Source of the DNA: Mariprofundaceae bacterium
Lineage (GTDB): Bacteria > Pseudomonadota > Zetaproteobacteria > Mariprofundales > Mariprofundaceae
NCBI GenBank assembly: GCA_030950905.1
Contig: JAUZQQ010000099.1
Coordinates: forward strand, 1-36,467
DNA length: 36,467 nucleotides
Direction of reading: 5' to 3'
A program made the position numbers and the translations under genes. Under the pieces are notes generated by a model. That model worked only from the letters and a program-made list of their open reading frames with translations, had not been told where the DNA came from and ran no database searches. Below, in pieces: positions 26,220 to 35,852 of this stretch (the stretch's first letter is position 1; the number at the start of each line of letters is the position of its first letter).

Positions 26220-27815
26220 TTGAATACCTCCCTTGCCCTTCATTGTGATTATTTAATCATTGGTAGCGGTGCTGCTGGCTTGCTTGCGGCGCAACACCTT
26301 GCCGAACATGGTGCTGTGATACTCATCAACAAGGGTGAATTTTCCGATTCCAATACCTACTATGCGCAAGGAGGTATTGCAGGTGTGGCAGACACGAGCG
26401 ATTCTACCGAGAACCACATTCAAGACACATTGATCGCAGGTGCAGGGCTGTGCCATGAAAATACCGTGCGCAAGGTTGCCGAGGCAGGTGGTGCAATGGT
26501 TCGGCATTTGCAAGCCTTGGGAACACCCTTTGACCATGATGAGCAAGGACTGCACCTCACCAAAGAGGGTGGGCATAGCCATCGTCGTGTTGCCCATGTA
26601 CAAGATGCAACGGGTCGTGCTATCAGCGAAACCCTTTACCACCATGTGCAAAACGATCAACGAATCTCCTGTCTTAGCCAGCATATTGCCATTGATTTAA
26701 TCACCAGTCGTCGCTTGGGACGGCATCATGGTCATAACCGTTGTTTGGGTGCTTACCTACTAAATCCAGAAGGGGTGATTATTACCGTAGCAGCCAAAGC
26801 AACGGTGCTGGCAACAGGCGGTGCTGGTAAAGTGTATAGGTACACCTCCAATCCTCACGTTGCTACGGGTGATGGTATCGCCATGGCATGGCGTGCGGGC
26901 TGTGCTGTGATGAATATGGAGTTTATTCAATTTCATCCCACTTGTTTGTTTCATGCAACAGCACCCACGATGCTCTTAAGCGAGGCATTAAGGGGTGAAG
27001 GTGCGCATATTGTTGATGAACAAGGCCATCGTTTTGTTTTTAACTACGATCCACGCGGCGAGATGGCATCGCGTGATATTGTTGCCCGTGCCATTGATCA
27101 TGAGATGAAAAAACAAGGCAAGGACTGCATGTACCTTGATGCCAGACCCTTGGGGGTAAAAAAAATCCTTAGGCATTTTCCCAATATTCATCAACGCCTA
27201 TTGGATGTATCCATCGACATGCGTCAATCCCCCATCCCAATTGTTCCAGCAGCCCATTATATTTGTGGCGGCGTGCAAACAGACTTGGCAGGGCGCACAT
27301 CGGTGAATGGTTTGTATGTTATTGGCGAATCAGCTTGCACCGGGCTGCATGGAGCCAACCGTTTGGCCAGCAACTCTTTGCTGGAATGTATGGTGATGGC
27401 GGATGCTTGTTGCCACCATGTCAAAAATGAGCCTGTACCACCGTTTCACATGCATTTACCATGTTGGGATGATTCAGGTACAATGCCTGAAATGGATCGT
27501 GTGCAAATCAAACAAAACTGGGATGAGATTCGCGCCACCATGTCCAATTACGTTGGTATTGTACGTTCGCGTCATCTATTGCGCAATGCGCGTCGTCGCT
27601 TGGCACTGATTCGAGAAGAAATATCCAGCTACTACTGGCAACACCCGTTAAGCCGTGATTTGATTGAATTGCGCAATTTATGTTTGATTGCCGAATTAAT
27701 CGTCCGTTCTGCACAACAAAGAAAAGAATCACGCGGCCTCCATTATTCCACAGACTTTCCGAACACCAACAGCAAGGAAGTCCATGATACCATCATTAAA
27801 CCAGAGGTTTTGTGA
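26220..27815 (+). CDS. nadB: L-aspartate oxidase (NadB)
   Basis: NadB is the FAD enzyme that turns aspartate into iminoaspartate, the first step of de novo NAD synthesis with NadA. The 531-residue product has the dinucleotide-binding GSGAAGLLAAQ near residue 15, TYYAQGGIAGV, the substrate segment GGHSHRRVAHVQDATGRAI, EALRGEGAHIVDEQGHRF, DPRGEMASRDIVARAI and the late FAD motif GLHGANRLASNSLLE. The first codon is TTG 26220, 15 nt after lptB, and no good SD is visible. The stop lies 16 nt upstream of the hsdR start. Confidence 0.96.
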   Translation: MNTSLALHCDYLIIGSGAAGLLAAQHLAEHGAVILINKGEFSDSNTYYAQGGIAGVADTSDSTENHIQDTLIAGAGLCHENTVRKVAEAGGAMVRHLQALGTPFDHDEQGLHLTKEGGHSHRRVAHVQDATGRAISETLYHHVQNDQRISCLSQHIAIDLITSRRLGRHHGHNRCLGAYLLNPEGVIITVAAKATVLATGGAGKVYRYTSNPHVATGDGIAMAWRAGCAVMNMEFIQFHPTCLFHATAPTMLLSEALRGEGAHIVDEQGHRFVFNYDPRGEMASRDIVARAIDHEMKKQGKDCMYLDARPLGVKKILRHFPNIHQRLLDVSIDMRQSPIPIVPAAHYICGGVQTDLAGRTSVNGLYVIGESACTGLHGANRLASNSLLECMVMADACCHHVKNEPVPPFHMHLPCWDDSGTMPEMDRVQIKQNWDEIRATMSNYVGIVRSRHLLRNARRRLALIREEISSYYWQHPLSRDLIELRNLCLIAELIVRSAQQRKESRGLHYSTDFPNTNSKEVHDTIIKPEVL

Positions 27816-27831: not shown

Positions 27832-30800
27832 ATGGTTAAGCGTAACAAGGGTAAAACTGTTGATATGACAAGAGAAAATAAGATTGAACAAAGCCTGATC
27901 GACAAGCTAGTCGATCTTAAATACTCCCACCGCGAAGATATTCGAGACAGGGATACGCTTGAGAAAAATTTTCGCGATAAATTTGAATCACTCAACCGAG
28001 TCAAACTAACCGATGCTGAGTTTGCTCGCCTTCGCGATGAAGTTATCAATGCTGATGTGTTCGCCGCCGCAAAAACGCTGCGCGAGCGTAATACATTTTC
28101 GCGTGAAGATGGCACGCCGTTGCAATACACACTGGTCAATATCAAAGACTGGTGCAAAAACGATTTCGAAGTCATCAACCAATTACGCATCAATACTGAC
28201 AATAGCCATCACCGTTATGATGTAATTTTGCTCATCAACGGTTTACCTTTGGTACAAATAGAGCTCAAATCGTTGGCCATCACCCCGCGCCGTGCCATGG
28301 AGCAAATCGTCGACTATAAAAATGACCCTGGCAATGGCTATACCAATACGCTGCTCTGCTTCATGCAGCTTTTTATTGTCAGTAACCGCGCCAATACGTA
28401 TTACTTCTCCAATAACCATAATCAACATTTCAGTTTCAATGCCGACGAACGCTTTTTACCTGTTTATCAACTTGCCAGTGAAGATAATAAAAAAATCACC
28501 CATCTGGATGACTTTGCCGACATGTTCCTCGCCAAGTGCACACTGGGGCAAATGATCAGCCGCTACATGGTCTTGGTGGCTAGTGAGCAAAAACTGATGA
28601 TCATGCGCCCATACCAAATCTATGCGGTGAAGGCGATTATTGATTGTATTCATCAAAACCGTGGCAATGGCTATATCTGGCACACCACGGGCAGTGGTAA
28701 AACGCTCACCTCGTTCAAAGCTTCTACATTGCTAAAAGACAACCCAGACATTGATAAATGCCTGTTTGTGGTCGACCGAAAAGACCTCGACCGCCAAACC
28801 CGCGAAGAGTTCAATAAATTTCAGGAGGGCTGTGTTGAAGAAAATACCAATACAGGATCCTTGGTGCGGCGCATGCTATCAGACGATTATGCCGATAAGG
28901 TGATTGTCACGACCATTCAGAAGCTGGGCATCGCGCTGGATGAAAACAGCAAGCGCAACCAACAACAGCAACAAAAAGGCAAGCAGAGCTACAAAGAGCG
29001 GCTGGAGCCTTTACGCAAGCAACGCATCGTCTTTATTTTTGACGAATGTCATCGCTCCCAGTTTGGCGATAACCACAAGGCCATTAAAGCATTCTTCCCT
29101 AATGCGCAGTTGTTTGGTTTTACCGGCACACCTATTTTTGACGATAACGCCACCTACAAAAAAATTGATGGCACGGTAGGTTCTTTTAAAACGACGGAAG
29201 ATATCTTCGAAAAACAGTTGCACGCCTACACCATCACCAACGCCATTGATGACCGCAACGTATTACGTTTTCATATCGATTACTTTGGCGAAAAGCCGAA
29301 AGACAACGAAGGTAAAAAGAGCAAGGCGAAACCCAAGTTACCTGCGCCTGAATCCATCGTAAAAGAGATATTGAAAAAACACGATGCTGTCACCAACCAG
29401 CGCCGTTTTAACGCGCTACTGGCGACGGCTTCCATTAACAATGCCATTGCGTTCTACGAACTATTCAAGAAAGTGCAGGCGCAGAGACAGGCCGCAGATG
29501 ACGACTATCAGCCCTTAAATATTGTTTGTGTATTCTCGCCACCCACGCAAACCTTGGCCAAAGAGAGCGACCATAAAAATGGCAAAAACGTTGCAGACAT
29601 TGAACAGCTGCAAGAGGATCTTCTCCAGGAAAAAGCCGATAATCAGGAAGCGCCGGAAGAGAAAAAAGCTGCCCTAATGGCCATGATTGCAGACTATAAT
29701 AGCCAATACAGCACCAATCACAGCATTAACGCGTTCGATCTCTATTATCAGGATCTGCAGCAGCGCATCAAAGATCAGAAATACAGCAATGCCGATTACC
29801 CGCGCAAAAATAAAATCGACGTGGTGATCGTGGTGGATATGCTGCTTACAGGTTTTGATTCCAAATACCTCAACACCCTCTATGTGGATAAAAACCTCAA
29901 ACACCACGGTCTGATTCAAGCCTTTTCACGCACCAACCGTGTATTAAACGACACCAAGCCCCATGGTAAAATTATGGATTTCCGTTATCAGGAAGCTGCC
30001 GTGGACGAAGCCATTGCGATGTTTTCCGGTCAGGATAAATCCCGCGCGAAAGAGATATGGCTGGTAGACCCTGCGCCAGAAGTCATTAAGCAGTTGGACG
30101 GGGCAGTTCACCAACTACAAACCTTTATGGATACACAAGGCCTTGCTTGCACACCAGAGCAGGTGAATAACCTCCAGGGTGATGATGCACGCGGTCAGTT
30201 TATCAACCACTTCAAAGAGGTGCAGCGCCTTAAAACGCAGCTTGATCAATACACAGATTTAAGCGAAGAGCAGAGCGAGGGTGTCAACGCACTCATGGAT
30301 GAGGATCAACTTCGCGGCTTCCGTGGCGTGTATCTGGAAACGGCGCAACGGCTTAAAATACAGCAAGGTAAAAGCGGCGATGATAGCCCCGTGCAACAGC
30401 TGGATTTTGAGCTGGTGCTGTTTGCCTCGGCGGTGATTGATTATGACTATATCATGGGATTGATCGCCAAAACCACCGACGAAAAAGCCAGCGCGCAAAA
30501 AATGAGCCGTATGCAGCTGATTAAGCTGATTAGTTCCAGTGCCAATCTCATGGATGAACGTGACGACATTATTGATTACATCAGCACCCTGCCAGCAGGT
30601 GAAAGCCTGAATGAAAAAACCATTCATAAAGGGTACGAGAAATTTAAAGCCGAAAAGTTAGCCAAGGAACTCTCCGCTATGGCTGAAAAACATGGGCTCA
30701 CGTGTGAATCCCTGCAAAGCTTTGTAGATGTCATTATGAACCGCATGATTTTTGATGGTGAACAATTGACGGACTTGATGGAACCTCTGAAACTGGGATG

Positions 30801-30906
30801 GAAGGCTAGACGCGTAGCAGAACTGGCTTTGATGGAAGAGCTTGTGCCGCTACTCAATAAATTAGCTCAAGGGCACGATATTTCGGGGTTATCTGCGTAT
30901 GAATAA
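27832..30906 (+). CDS. hsdR: Type I restriction endonuclease subunit R (HsdR)
   Basis: HsdR is the motor and nuclease of a type I restriction system: it translocates DNA with ATP and cuts unmodified DNA. Starting at ATG 27832, preceded by GGGGGA, gives 1024 residues. The PD-(D/E)xK nuclease site is Asp130, Glu144 and Lys146 (QIELK). Walker A is TTGSGKT (285-291), the DECH box is at 404-407, and FGFTGTPIF and QAFSRTNRVL are further helicase motifs. An in-frame ATG at 27784 lies inside nadB and is unlikely. The stop overlaps the hsdS start by 8 nt. Confidence 0.96.
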   Translation: MVKRNKGKTVDMTRENKIEQSLIDKLVDLKYSHREDIRDRDTLEKNFRDKFESLNRVKLTDAEFARLRDEVINADVFAAAKTLRERNTFSREDGTPLQYTLVNIKDWCKNDFEVINQLRINTDNSHHRYDVILLINGLPLVQIELKSLAITPRRAMEQIVDYKNDPGNGYTNTLLCFMQLFIVSNRANTYYFSNNHNQHFSFNADERFLPVYQLASEDNKKITHLDDFADMFLAKCTLGQMISRYMVLVASEQKLMIMRPYQIYAVKAIIDCIHQNRGNGYIWHTTGSGKTLTSFKASTLLKDNPDIDKCLFVVDRKDLDRQTREEFNKFQEGCVEENTNTGSLVRRMLSDDYADKVIVTTIQKLGIALDENSKRNQQQQQKGKQSYKERLEPLRKQRIVFIFDECHRSQFGDNHKAIKAFFPNAQLFGFTGTPIFDDNATYKKIDGTVGSFKTTEDIFEKQLHAYTITNAIDDRNVLRFHIDYFGEKPKDNEGKKSKAKPKLPAPESIVKEILKKHDAVTNQRRFNALLATASINNAIAFYELFKKVQAQRQAADDDYQPLNIVCVFSPPTQTLAKESDHKNGKNVADIEQLQEDLLQEKADNQEAPEEKKAALMAMIADYNSQYSTNHSINAFDLYYQDLQQRIKDQKYSNADYPRKNKIDVVIVVDMLLTGFDSKYLNTLYVDKNLKHHGLIQAFSRTNRVLNDTKPHGKIMDFRYQEAAVDEAIAMFSGQDKSRAKEIWLVDPAPEVIKQLDGAVHQLQTFMDTQGLACTPEQVNNLQGDDARGQFINHFKEVQRLKTQLDQYTDLSEEQSEGVNALMDEDQLRGFRGVYLETAQRLKIQQGKSGDDSPVQQLDFELVLFASAVIDYDYIMGLIAKTTDEKASAQKMSRMQLIKLISSSANLMDERDDIIDYISTLPAGESLNEKTIHKGYEKFKAEKLAKELSAMAEKHGLTCESLQSFVDVIMNRMIFDGEQLTDLMEPLKLGWKARRVAELALMEELVPLLNKLAQGHDISGLSAYE

Positions 30907-32230
30907 ACAGACTAAAAAAACACTCGTGCCTAAACTGCGTTTTCCTAAGTTTCGGGAGGCGGGGGAGTGGAATAATGAGCTACTAGAAGCCTTATATTCA
31001 TTTAAAGTAACAAATTCATTTTCGAGAGAAAAGCTGAATTACGAAAATGGTTTGGTGAAAAATATACATTACGGAGATATACACACTAAATTTTCCACAT
31101 TATTTAATATCGAACAAGCAAATGTTCCATTTATAAATACATCAGAGTCCTTAGATAAGATCAAACAAGAATGCTTCTGCGAAGAAGGAGATATGATTTT
31201 TGCTGACGCTTCAGAAGATTTAGGTGATGTAGGAAAAAGCATTGAGATTGTTCATTTAAATGATGAAAGACTTCTATCTGGTTTACACACTCTTTTAGCC
31301 CGACAAAAAGACGAAAAACTAATAGTTGGTTTTGGCGGATATTTATTTAAGTCAAACAGAATTAGGGAACAGATTAAAAGAGAATCGCAAGGAGCTAAAG
31401 TCCTTGGAGTATCGGCAGGAAGATTATCAAATATTAAAGTTATTTATCCTTTAAAAAAGAATGAACAACAAAAAATCGCTGATTGTCTTTCTTCCATCGA
31501 CGAACTGATCACCGCGCACACCCAAAAACACGATGCACTCAAAGCCCATAAAAAAAGCCTGATGCAGCAGCTATTTCCTACCGAAGGTGAAACCGTTCCC
31601 AAGCTTCGCTTTCCTGAATTTCAGGATGCGGGGGAGTGGATCGAAACAAAGCTTGGGAAAGTCACCAGTTTTTCTTCAGGAGGAACCCCCTCAAAAGGTG
31701 TACCTGCATACTGGGGAGGCGATATTCCGTGGATAAGCGCTTCTTCAATGCATAGTACAAGCATTAGAGATTCTGATCATAGTATTACGGAATATGCAGT
31801 AAATGAAGGTGCTCGAACAGCCGAAAAAGGAACGTTACTACTATTGGTTCGTGGAAGTATGCTACACAAAAGGATTCCCATTGGAATTGCAGAGAAAGAC
31901 GTAGCATACAACCAGGATGTTAAAGCCCTGATACTTAAAAAAAATATTCTTGGAAAACTCTTGATGTATTTGTTAATTGCTTCTGAATGGGGGCTTTTAA
32001 ATGCTGTTACTAAAACAGGCATAGGGGCAGGGAAACTTGATACAAATGATCTAAATAAGTTCCCAGTTTATTTTCCTTCTGATAAAGATGAACAACAAAA
32101 AATCACCGACTGTCTATCTTCCATCGACGAATTGATCGCCGCACAATCCCAGAAAATCGAATCCCTTAAAGCCCATAAAAAAGGGCTGATGCAGCAGCTT
32201 TTCCCCACCGTTGATGAGGTGAATGTATGA
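30899..32230 (+). CDS. hsdS: Type I restriction-modification specificity subunit (HsdS)
   Basis: HsdS determines the bipartite target sequence and joins HsdM and HsdR. The 443-residue protein has two target-recognition domains (about 25-190 and 245-400). Each is introduced by PKLRFPxFxxAGEW and followed by a conserved coiled-coil region, EQQKIxDCLSSIDELI ... AHKKxLMQQLFPT. This internal duplication is visible at DNA level (30926-30970 with 31595-31639, and 31463-31583 with 32090-32210). The first domain's DNA is clearly more AT-rich than its surroundings, typical of exchanged recognition domains. No frameshift is present. Confidence 0.95.
   Translation: MNKQTKKTLVPKLRFPKFREAGEWNNELLEALYSFKVTNSFSREKLNYENGLVKNIHYGDIHTKFSTLFNIEQANVPFINTSESLDKIKQECFCEEGDMIFADASEDLGDVGKSIEIVHLNDERLLSGLHTLLARQKDEKLIVGFGGYLFKSNRIREQIKRESQGAKVLGVSAGRLSNIKVIYPLKKNEQQKIADCLSSIDELITAHTQKHDALKAHKKSLMQQLFPTEGETVPKLRFPEFQDAGEWIETKLGKVTSFSSGGTPSKGVPAYWGGDIPWISASSMHSTSIRDSDHSITEYAVNEGARTAEKGTLLLLVRGSMLHKRIPIGIAEKDVAYNQDVKALILKKNILGKLLMYLLIASEWGLLNAVTKTGIGAGKLDTNDLNKFPVYFPSDKDEQQKITDCLSSIDELIAAQSQKIESLKAHKKGLMQQLFPTVDEVNV
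31463..31583 (+). repeat. hsdS conserved-region repeat, copy 1
   Basis: This 121-nt segment encodes the central coiled coil of HsdS and is a diverged direct repeat of 32090-32210, with the same length and no gaps. Such paired regions allow recombination that changes the specificity domains. Confidence 0.8.
32090..32210 (+). repeat. hsdS conserved-region repeat, copy 2
   Basis: The C-terminal coiled coil of HsdS is the second copy of the 121-nt repeat at 31463-31583. Confidence 0.8.
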
Positions 32231-32266
32231 TATTATCAGCCATGAAATACCGAAAGGAGTTGTGCC

Positions 32267-33136
32267 ATGGATAAACAATTGCAAACCCTGCAACACAAGC
32301 TCGAAGCGGTTGTACAACGTGCCGATGCGGAAGGTATTGAGTTCTGGTTTGCCCGCGATCTGCAAGCCCCTTTGGGTTATGCTCGTTGGGAGAATTTCCA
32401 AACGGCGATTCAACGCGGCATGGAATCTTGCGAGACCACGGGAAATAAAGCTTCGGATCATTTTCGTGGCGTCACGAAAATGATCGAGCTGGGTAAGGGT
32501 GGCAAACGTGAGGTTCATGACTTTATGCTCACCCGCTATGCCTGTTACCTGATTGCCCAGAATGGTGATCCACGTAAACCTGAGATTGCTTTTGCGCAAA
32601 GCTATTTTGCTGTACAAACTCGCAAGCAGGAGTTGATAGAAGAGCGTATGCGCCTGCAAGCGCGTATGGAAGCACGAGACAGGCTGAAGAAGTCCGAAAA
32701 ATCCCTGTCGCAAAATATTTTCGAGCGTGGAGTAGATAACTCTGGTTTTGGGCGTATTCGTTCACAAGGCGATAAAGCTTTGTTTGGAGGCAATACCACG
32801 CAGACCATGAAGGACAGATACGGTATCGTTAAAAGTCGCCCTCTGGCTGATTTTTTACCCACCTTAACCATTGCCGCCAAAAATCTTGCTACCGAGATGA
32901 CTAATCACAATGTGGAAGAAGCTAATTTACAGGGTGAGCGAGCAATCACCGATGAACATGTACAAAATAATGTCAGTGTGCGCGATATGCTGGGACAGCG
33001 AGGGATTAAACCAGAAAATCTGGCTGCTGAAGAGGATTTAAAAAAACTGGAACGCCGGGTTAAATCGGAAGAAAAAAAGCTGGCAAAAACCACCAAAAGT
33101 TTACCGCCACGTAGCGACGAGTCCGCTAACAAATGA
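32267..33136 (+). CDS. dinD: DinD-like DNA damage-inducible protein
   Basis: The 289-residue protein matches DinD by its N-terminal segment WFARDLQAPLGYARWENFQT and by FMLTRYACYLIAQNGDPRKPEIAFAQ in two blocks, RSQGDKALFGGNTTQTMKDR, and a charged, helical C-terminus. E. coli DinD (274 residues) is LexA-regulated and inhibits RecA filament activity in vitro. AAAGGAG precedes ATG 32267. It is inserted between hsdS and prrC, and its stop overlaps the prrC start by 4 nt, so it is a co-translated member of the restriction operon. I see no SOS box immediately upstream. Confidence 0.88.
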   Translation: MDKQLQTLQHKLEAVVQRADAEGIEFWFARDLQAPLGYARWENFQTAIQRGMESCETTGNKASDHFRGVTKMIELGKGGKREVHDFMLTRYACYLIAQNGDPRKPEIAFAQSYFAVQTRKQELIEERMRLQARMEARDRLKKSEKSLSQNIFERGVDNSGFGRIRSQGDKALFGGNTTQTMKDRYGIVKSRPLADFLPTLTIAAKNLATEMTNHNVEEANLQGERAITDEHVQNNVSVRDMLGQRGIKPENLAAEEDLKKLERRVKSEEKKLAKTTKSLPPRSDESANK

Positions 33137-34248
33137 ACAACCTATTACCCTTTGCCAGCCTGGATGACGTCACAACCCATTTCCGCGATAAACTGAATGA
33201 TAAAAAATATCTATTACTGTTTGCCTACAACGGCACAGGCAAGACACGGTTATCCATGGCATTTAAGGAAGCGGGTAAAAGGGAGAACGAACGAGACACC
33301 CTCTATTTTAATGCCTTCACCGAAGACCTGTTCAGCTGGGATAATGACCTGGATCATGATGCTCAAAGGGTATTGAAGCTCAATTCGAACTCTCGTTTTT
33401 TTGCTGGTATTCAAGAGCTGGAAATGGATACCCGTATCCGTCCATTGTTGCAGCGTTATGCAGACTTTGACTTTAAAATTGATACAGATAACTGGACAGT
33501 AAGTTTTGAGCGTGAAGTCAATCAGGGTGAACATAGCGTGACAGTTGCACACATTAAAATCTCTCGCGGCGAAGAAAATATTTTTATCTGGTGTTTTTTT
33601 CTTGCCGTCGCGCAATTGGCGATTGATGCGAGCAGTGAAGAAGAAGCCTACGCTTGGGTGAAATACATTTACATTGACGACCCTATCTCCTCACTGGATG
33701 ACAATAATGCCATTGCTGTCGCCAGCCATTTGGCGCAAATGCTAAAAAATCAAAGCCGTGTGAAAACGGTCATCTCTTCTCACCATACCCTGTTTTTTAA
33801 TGTCATGTGCAACGAGCTAAGCAGAGCAGTAAAGTACTTCTTAAGCAAAGATGAAGCAGGGGGTGCTTATACATTGAGAGATACAAGTGACACGCCTTTT
33901 TTTCATCATGTTTCCCTCATCAAAGATCTGCATAAAGCGGTAGAGTCGGGTGATTTGTATACCTATCATTTCAATATATTACGTAATATTTTAGAAAAAA
34001 CCGCGACCTTTCACGGCTTTAAAAACTTCTCCGCCTGTATCAAGCAGGGTCATGATGATCCTGATGGTATTGTATATGCGAGAATGGTTAACATATTAAG
34101 CCATGGCAACTATTCACTGTTTGAACCTACGGAAATGATCAATGAGAACAAACAGTACTTTAGAAAAATATTGCGCGATTTTATGAACAATTACCGATTT
34201 AACCCCGAACTGTTTCCTGAACAGATTGAAGAGGCTGCGCAACCATGA
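33133..34248 (+). CDS. prrC: PrrC-like anticodon nuclease
   Basis: The 371-residue protein opens with the PrrC-type P-loop segment FAYNGTGKTRLSMAFKEAGK and continues with LYFNAFTEDLFSWDNDLDHD, both strongly reminiscent of E. coli PrrC. The ABC-like Walker B is YIDDPISSLDD (180-190), followed by SSHH (216-219). The C-terminal ribonuclease part has Arg284, Glu288 and His324, with spacing comparable to the Arg-Glu-His triad reported for PrrC. PrrC is held silent by the type I complex and cuts tRNA-Lys at the wobble position when a phage inhibitor disables restriction. ATGA overlaps dinD upstream and hsdM downstream. Confidence 0.9.
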   Translation: MNNLLPFASLDDVTTHFRDKLNDKKYLLLFAYNGTGKTRLSMAFKEAGKRENERDTLYFNAFTEDLFSWDNDLDHDAQRVLKLNSNSRFFAGIQELEMDTRIRPLLQRYADFDFKIDTDNWTVSFEREVNQGEHSVTVAHIKISRGEENIFIWCFFLAVAQLAIDASSEEEAYAWVKYIYIDDPISSLDDNNAIAVASHLAQMLKNQSRVKTVISSHHTLFFNVMCNELSRAVKYFLSKDEAGGAYTLRDTSDTPFFHHVSLIKDLHKAVESGDLYTYHFNILRNILEKTATFHGFKNFSACIKQGHDDPDGIVYARMVNILSHGNYSLFEPTEMINENKQYFRKILRDFMNNYRFNPELFPEQIEEAAQP

Positions 34249-35852
34249 CCGAAGAAAATCAAAAAGAATTGGGCAAAACCCTTTGGGGCATCGCTAACGA
34301 TTTGCGCGGTGCGATGAACGCAGACGATTTTCGTGACTATATGCTGTCGTTCCTGTTCTTACGTTATTTATCTGATAACTACGAAACATCTGCAAAAAAA
34401 GAGTTGGGCGTAGATTATCCAACATTGAAACCCAATGATAAACGTGCGCCTTTAAGATTATGGTATGAAGACAACGCCGAGGATATCGTTGAATTTGAAA
34501 AACAGATGCGACGTAAGGTGCATTATGTAATTGAGCCGCAGCATCTGTGGAGCAGTATTGCAGAGCTGGCCAGAACGCAAAACGATACGTTATTGGACAC
34601 CTTGCAACAGGGATTTAAGTATATTGAAAACAAATCCTTTGAAAGTACGTTTCAGGGGCTGTTCTCAGAAATCAATCTTGATTCTGAAAAGCTGGGTAAA
34701 AAATACGCTGATCGCAATGCCACGTTGTGTACCATCATTAGCAAAATCGCCGAAGGTATTGCGAAATTTTCTTCAAACAGCGATGTGTTGGGCGATGCCT
34801 ATGAATACCTGATTGGCCAGTTTGCCGCAGGATCGGGTAAAAAAGCCGGTGAGTTTTATACACCGCAACAAATATCGACGATACTGTCTAAAATTGTCAC
34901 GCTTGATAGTCAGGAGCCCGCAACAGGCCCAAAGAAAAAACTCAATAAGGTGCTTGATTTTGCCAGTGGCTCCGGTTCGTTGTTGCTCAATGTTCGCAAA
35001 CAGCTTGGCTCACACGGGATTGGTAAAATCTACGGCCAGGAAAAAAATATTACGACGTTCAACCTAGCGCGTATGAACATGCTATTGCACGGGGTAATAG
35101 ATTCGGAATTCGAAATTCACCACGGTGATTCGCTGCTCAATGATTGGGCTTTACTGAATGAAATGAACCCAGCCAAAAAACTGGAGTGCGATGCTGTGGT
35201 GGCTAATCCACCGTTTAGCTACCGCTGGGAACCGACGGAAGCATTGGGTGAAGATTTTCGTTTTAAAAGCTATGGCCTTGCGCCCAAATCAGCAGCGGAC
35301 TTTGCTTTCTTATTGCATGGTTTCCATTTTCTAAGCGATGAAGGAACCATGGCTATCATTCTGCCGCATGGTGTTCTGTTCCGTGGCGGAGCCGAATCAC
35401 GTATTCGCACCAAGCTCTTAAAAGATGGCAATATTGATACGGTGATTGGCTTGCCTGCTAACCTGTTTTTCTCAACTGGTATCCCCGTATGTATTCTGAT
35501 TTTGAAAAAGTGTAAAAAATACGATGATGTTTTATTTATCAATGCCAGCGAACACTTCGAGAAAGCTAAACGTCAAAACAACTTGCTTGATGCCCATGTT
35601 GAAAAAATCGTCGACACGTATCAATTCCGTCAAGAAGAAGATCGTTATGCAAGACGTGTTTCCATGGAAGAGATTGAGCAGAATGATTTTAACTTAAATA
35701 TTTCTCGCTATATAAGCACTGCCAAGCCTGAGCCAAAGATCGACTTGCAAGTAGTCAATGCTGAGCTGATTGATTGGGAAAATAAAATTATTGAAGCTAC
35801 CAGCAGGCACAATGCGTTTCTGCATGAGCTTGGGTTACCACCTCTACCATAG
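34245..35852 (+). CDS. hsdM: Type I modification methyltransferase subunit (HsdM)
   Basis: HsdM is the N6-adenine methyltransferase subunit that protects host sites and, with HsdS, forms the modification core. The 535-residue product begins with the usual N-terminal helical domain (LWGIANDLRGAMNADDFRDY, then LSFLFLRYLSDNYE), has the SAM-binding motif DFASGSGSLLLN (about residues 238-249), GDSLLND, and the catalytic NPPF (about 321-324). It is the last gene of the operon; having modification after restriction implies that one transcript carries both. The start overlaps the prrC stop (ATGA). Confidence 0.96.
   Translation: MTEENQKELGKTLWGIANDLRGAMNADDFRDYMLSFLFLRYLSDNYETSAKKELGVDYPTLKPNDKRAPLRLWYEDNAEDIVEFEKQMRRKVHYVIEPQHLWSSIAELARTQNDTLLDTLQQGFKYIENKSFESTFQGLFSEINLDSEKLGKKYADRNATLCTIISKIAEGIAKFSSNSDVLGDAYEYLIGQFAAGSGKKAGEFYTPQQISTILSKIVTLDSQEPATGPKKKLNKVLDFASGSGSLLLNVRKQLGSHGIGKIYGQEKNITTFNLARMNMLLHGVIDSEFEIHHGDSLLNDWALLNEMNPAKKLECDAVVANPPFSYRWEPTEALGEDFRFKSYGLAPKSAADFAFLLHGFHFLSDEGTMAIILPHGVLFRGGAESRIRTKLLKDGNIDTVIGLPANLFFSTGIPVCILILKKCKKYDDVLFINASEHFEKAKRQNNLLDAHVEKIVDTYQFRQEEDRYARRVSMEEIEQNDFNLNISRYISTAKPEPKIDLQVVNAELIDWENKIIEATSRHNAFLHELGLPPLP

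Follow-up and report, generated by a model that had tools for sequence, protein, structure and literature searches.

The location of PrrC within type I restriction-modification (R-M) operons is classical. In the EcoprrI (prr) locus of Escherichia coli, a type IC R-M system, prrC lies behind hsdS in the gene order M-S-prrC-R, and its product, whose trigger is an Stp-like factor, carries an Arg-X3-Glu ... His catalytic triad made up of Arg320, Glu324 and His356 (PMC2610378). Defence genes embedded in type I operons have become an active theme, DarTG2 being one example (PMC12255303), and dinD has been described inside the type I R-M operon Btr190I of Bibersteinia trehalosi, where it is reported to be fused to hsdS (PMC4996451). 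PADLOC lists the DinD, RhuM and YhcG families (PDC-S13, PDC-S05 and PDC-S02, respectively) as phage defence candidates, in the form of single-gene models with no mechanism given. In E. coli K-12, dinD is a solo gene with a LexA box, and its product is reported to inhibit the filaments formed by RecA (Uranga et al. 2011, cited in PMC10602874).

Here, we analyzed a window of 36,467 nucleotides, a whole contig of a 1.6-Mb assembly (82% complete) from a member of the family Mariprofundaceae, a relative of the iron-oxidising Mariprofundus. As the original prediction had stated, positions 27832 to 35852 hold five ORFs on the same strand in the order hsdR-hsdS-dinD-prrC-hsdM. All five were found to be intact, and their family matches far exceed the cut-offs. 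The genes, together with the upstream neighbor, are as follows:

26220..27815, + strand, nadB, flanking host gene (name given by eye from the sequence)
27832..30906, + strand, hsdR, type I restriction/translocase subunit with HSDR_N, SWI2_SNF2/ResIII and EcoR124_C domains (TIGR00348, 384 bits)
30899..32230, + strand, hsdS, specificity subunit with two target-recognition domains (two PF01420 matches)
32267..33136, + strand, dinD (lineage A), Bro-N domain and helical C-terminal part (NF008573, 367 bits)
33133..34248, + strand, prrC, putative latent anticodon nuclease with an ABC-type ATPase head and an Arg284-Glu288-His324 triad (PADLOC PDLC02360, 467 bits)
34245..35852, + strand, hsdM, N6-adenine methyltransferase subunit with HsdM_N and N6_Mtase domains (TIGR00497, 375 bits)

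The presence of HsdR, HsdM and HsdS together, all intact (TIGR00348, TIGR00497 and PF01420 twice), identifies the locus as a type I R-M system. Like EcoprrI, it has prrC behind hsdS, with the same catalytic triad and ATPase motifs; it differs from EcoprrI in its gene order, R-S-dinD-prrC-M, and in the addition of dinD. The start of hsdR lies 16 nt past the nadB stop codon; an alternative in-frame ATG at 27784 falls within nadB, and homology begins only at residue 24-31 of the longer ORF. Because nadB is followed by different genes in six relatives, the operon at this site is an acquired insert. Within it, hsdR overlaps hsdS by 8 nt, and the dinD/prrC and prrC/hsdM junctions are 4-nt overlaps (ATGA), while 36 nt separate hsdS from dinD, whose ATG is preceded by a ribosome-binding site (AAGGAG). 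dinD shares the operon with hsdS and is coupled to prrC by overlap; the proposed translational coupling of dinD holds on its downstream side and not on its upstream side, where the gene has its own ribosome site. No structured RNA in the window reached the Rfam cut-off, and promoter and terminator scans gave signals scarcely above those of shuffled sequence. Further type I specificity genes were seen on two other contigs of the same genome (G000 contigs C54 and C15).

The 371-aa PrrC of the window and the 372-aa PADLOC PrrC model align over almost their full lengths, and both the size of the protein and this alignment place it apart from RloC, since it is without the long zinc-hook coiled coil of that protein. 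Every motif listed in the original prediction (AYNGTGKTRL, IDDPISSLDD, R284, E288 and H324) was found. The ATPase motifs, GTGKT at residues 34 to 38, the signature SRGEE at 144 to 148 and the D-loop DDPISSLDD at 182 to 190, are kept among 19 homologues, and the P-loop, R284, E288 and H324 are invariant in these proteins, down to about 33% identity. The three catalytic residues correspond to Arg320, Glu324 and His356 of the E. coli enzyme. Judged by its sequence, the protein is a genuine PrrC family member. By analogy with EcoprrI, it is probably a tRNA-Lys nuclease that stays latent under the control of the restriction complex (PMC3874165, PMC12707154), the trigger and the target both being assigned by that analogy. 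The proposal of restriction layered with a PrrC guard fared well, as it is backed by strong membership evidence and, for the guarding role that PrrC would play, by the EcoprrI precedent (PMC2610378, PMC3874165). A structure prediction for PrrC, based on five alignment rows, had low confidence in the catalytic part and was left unused, and a sequence search returned no solved homologues of the protein.

An even draw of 398 Pseudomonadota genomes yielded PrrC in 16, with 15 intact copies. Each of the 15 intact genes resides inside a type I operon behind hsdS, in one of two gene orders, M-S-prrC-R as in EcoprrI or R-S-prrC-M as in the window, and three of these operons have a RhuM or dinD gene between hsdS and prrC. 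A further candidate (L036), only 20% identical to the window PrrC and RloC-like, was dropped from the PrrC counts. We also observed that RhuM (PF13310 family) often adjoins prrC in the slot behind hsdS (L145, L146, L149, L153 and L113).

The window DinD scored 366.9 bits against NF008573, whose curated cut-off is 242, and is a member of this family. A scan of one genome per species (85,462 species) yielded 80 loci with a DinD 62 to 90% identical to it, in phyla that include Cyanobacteria, Verrucomicrobia, Chlamydiae, Bacteroidetes, Planctomycetes and Firmicutes, and also in methanogens. dinD beside hsd genes, which could have been a peculiarity of this strain, was thereby found in many phyla. 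For classification, the species-scan loci were pooled with those of the Pseudomonadota draw and K-12, giving 102 dinD genes, and the neighborhood was set at 4 kb. Type I genes were present around 51 of the 102, on the same strand in all 51 cases, and no dinD had opposite-strand type I genes only. Eight genes were in a type III context, and the mod-dinD-res arrangement of such systems was confirmed with Pfam at three loci (L038, L039 and L111). The other 43 had no type I or type III genes within 4 kb, 9 of them lying at contig ends. In the even Pseudomonadota draw, with the window excluded, 7 of 21 dinD loci were within 4 kb of type I genes versus about 0.3% expected (P about 1e-13), which shows that the proximity of dinD to type I genes is not due to chance.

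Several gene orders were seen with dinD, namely R-S-dinD-M, M-dinD-S-R, M-S-dinD-R, R-dinD-M-S and R-dinD-S-M. Parsimony on a quick DinD tree with some long branches required at least 18 changes of the type I label, 8 of them forced by starred branches, and 7 changes of the type III label, 5 of them so forced. ATP-dependent restriction systems carry DinD as a portable cargo that recurs and has been gained independently many times. Its dN/dS is about 0.03 to 0.05, with synonymous sites near saturation, and its dN is the lowest of the genes compared, below that of hsdR, hsdM and prrC; DinD is under purifying selection. At one locus without restriction genes (L012:7974-10174), dinD is flanked by a histidinol dehydrogenase gene and by one for a toxin-looking HEPN/RES-domain protein.

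The 43 genes without a restriction neighbor could mean that DinD is an independent, stand-alone defence or a selfish passenger exploiting recombination-prone slots of restriction operons. Consistent with this, DinD homologues ride phages, satellites and plasmids, PADLOC treats DinD (PDC-S13) as a single-gene candidate, and the same slots are filled elsewhere by the unrelated RhuM (PF13310) and YhcG (PF06250) genes. We regard this explanation as quite unlikely, since the complete strand concordance with type I genes, the often tight spacing and the recurring acquisition by type I and type III operons alike suggest a benefit from being co-expressed with restriction genes.

Loci with the same R-S-x-M backbone encode proteins highly similar to those of the window (HsdR 66 to 78%, HsdM 73 to 85%, PrrC 46 to 73% and DinD 73 to 90% identical), and HsdS is the variable gene, mostly 30 to 50% identical to its relatives; one exception is L113, whose DinD is about 52% identical to that of the window and sits between R and S. 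On unrelated backbones (L014, L016 and L020), where HsdM is 28% or less identical or could not be aligned, DinD is still 75 to 82% identical, and thus DinD is independent of one particular HsdM or HsdR. Type III restriction systems, to our knowledge, have no HsdS, and the occurrence of dinD in them therefore indicates that DinD does not require HsdS either.

These observations bear on the possibility that the restriction complex includes DinD as a structural or regulatory subunit, which would bind the M2S core, often beside HsdS or fused to it, and tune assembly, methylation or cleavage. Such a role would fit the Btr190I fusion, which is reported to retain specificity function (PMC4996451), the PADLOC Specificity_I model PDLC03083 (717 aa), which begins with a DinD domain, and the frequent placement of dinD between M and S with 4-nt overlaps in several loci. 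It is nonetheless unlikely: type III systems also carry dinD, in their case between mod and res, closely related DinD proteins accompany HsdM families that share only 25 to 28% identity, the position of dinD relative to M, S and R varies, and PDLC03083 matches the E. coli-like lineage much more closely than it does that of the window. We conclude that DinD is a selected, portable accessory tied to no single HsdM, HsdR, HsdS or PrrC.

Loci that share the backbone of the window bear on the relation of DinD to PrrC. L116, from the same family, and L006 are missing exactly prrC, and L152, from the same genus, is missing dinD. PrrC and DinD are separable cargos, a congener having PrrC only and another species of the family DinD only, and a fixed toxin-antitoxin-like pair was ruled out by this separability. 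Both genes do occur in one operon at six loci (the window, L002, L003, L004, L013 and L113), which, together with the dinD/prrC overlap, could be taken to mean that DinD serves PrrC as a partner, inhibitor or trigger and that the two form one guard module. We give this explanation very little credence. In the even draw, 13 of the 15 prrC operons are without dinD and only 2 have both genes, most hsd-embedded dinD genes are without prrC, and the relative order of dinD and prrC varies. On a base of about 313 HsdM matches, summed by hand, Fisher's test for the pairing gave a P of 0.05 when the window was counted and 0.28 when it was left out. The six double loci are not significantly above what a shared slot yields, and a special DinD-PrrC partnership is not supported.

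Two DinD lineages were distinguished, A, with the window protein, and B, with that of E. coli K-12. The window and K-12 proteins share NF008573 and the Bro-N domain, and are about 33% identical. Both lineages occur in hsd operons, and two loci carry both: L007:5399-8482, with the order hsdR-dinD_B-hsdS-dinD_A-rhuM-hsdM, and L069:1552-3604, with hsdM-dinD_B-dinD_A. In seven M-dinD-S-R operons, mostly of marine gammaproteobacteria, dinD (lineage A) and hsdS flank a conserved ORF of about 97 aa (L058:8738-9082, L060:4815-5120, L065:8738-9091, L066:8738-9082, L067:8738-9082, L070:8729-9082 and L080:8753-9082). The ORF of L058 shares 71% identity with roughly the C-terminal 76 residues of E. coli DinD (lineage B); such an ORF may be either a dinD gene for the C-terminal domain only or the remnant of a second dinD.

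An exact LexA box was detected upstream of three solo B genes, K-12 dinD, which served as positive control, and two others, but upstream of no restriction-embedded dinD; in the window, no CTGTN8ACAG-like site with at most one mismatch precedes dinD or hsdR. SOS control of the embedded genes was rejected on this ground. The RecA antagonism that had been carried over from E. coli is doubtful for the window DinD: it is a distant transfer, because the proteins belong to separate lineages with low identity and no LexA box precedes embedded dinD.

A sequence search found no solved homologues of DinD. In an AlphaFold model of the window protein (43 alignment rows, mean pLDDT 83.6), the sole significant fold neighbor in the PDB was DdrC of Deinococcus radiodurans (Foldseek E 1e-4, probability 1.0, with low TM-scores of 0.36/0.46). 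DdrC, a DNA-damage-response protein, has affinity for both ss- and dsDNA and shields DNA from nucleases; it also anneals strands and closes linear DNA into circles (PMC5436757). It is unlinked to restriction, and its homology with DinD is unsupported by sequence profiles, so the resemblance of the predicted folds is a lead. This DdrC-like predicted fold suggests that DinD may bind DNA ends or ssDNA, and a role on DNA ends, as raised in the original prediction, or on ssDNA stays our best guess.

On balance, we lean modestly toward a reading in which a horizontally acquired type I R-M operon carries two independent cargos behind hsdS, a gated PrrC and a DinD acting on DNA ends. HsdR, HsdM and HsdS would methylate self DNA and cut unmethylated DNA, and the restriction complex would keep PrrC silent until a phage anti-restriction factor disturbs it, upon which PrrC would cleave tRNA-Lys and translation would stop; homology to PrrC proteins argues for this activity and its gating. 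DinD, as a portable accessory of type I and type III ATP-dependent restriction systems, would most likely bind DNA ends or ssDNA made by translocation and cutting and, once bound, might impede their repair or their rescue through RecA or phage recombinases, or hold the ends. Action on DNA ends or RecA filaments is put forward more cautiously than the PrrC part. Type I and type III hosts have in common ATP-driven movement on DNA and the making of double-strand breaks, which favors a role on broken DNA over one inside the M2S complex.

A bolder version, which we entertain only tentatively, assigns DinD to type I and type III ATP-dependent restriction enzymes as a dedicated companion: by sitting on the broken ends or keeping recombinases from loading, it would render the cuts irreversible. 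In this version, E. coli DinD would be an orphan of the family that the SOS response has captured. Against an obligate link with restriction stands the proportion of sampled dinD genes, about 42%, that have no restriction genes within 4 kb.

With a dinD-hsdS fusion published, dinD in hsd operons reported and the family already a PADLOC defence candidate, the operon described here is a well-supported further case. The literature searched contained no relevant paper linking dinD with prrC, and no account of the R-S-dinD-prrC-M operon or its relatives, the type III association, the two lineages or the contrast in SOS boxes, part of which may be covered by a preprint on embedded defence (Payne et al. 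2024, cited in PMC12255303). If the proposed role of DinD is true, it would give a reason why restriction operons so often hold a DNA-damage protein, and it would tie restriction to what becomes of the DNA after cutting, a stage that has received little attention in type I and type III systems. DinD, known as an E. coli SOS gene, is also recast as a family that has repeatedly settled in restriction operons.
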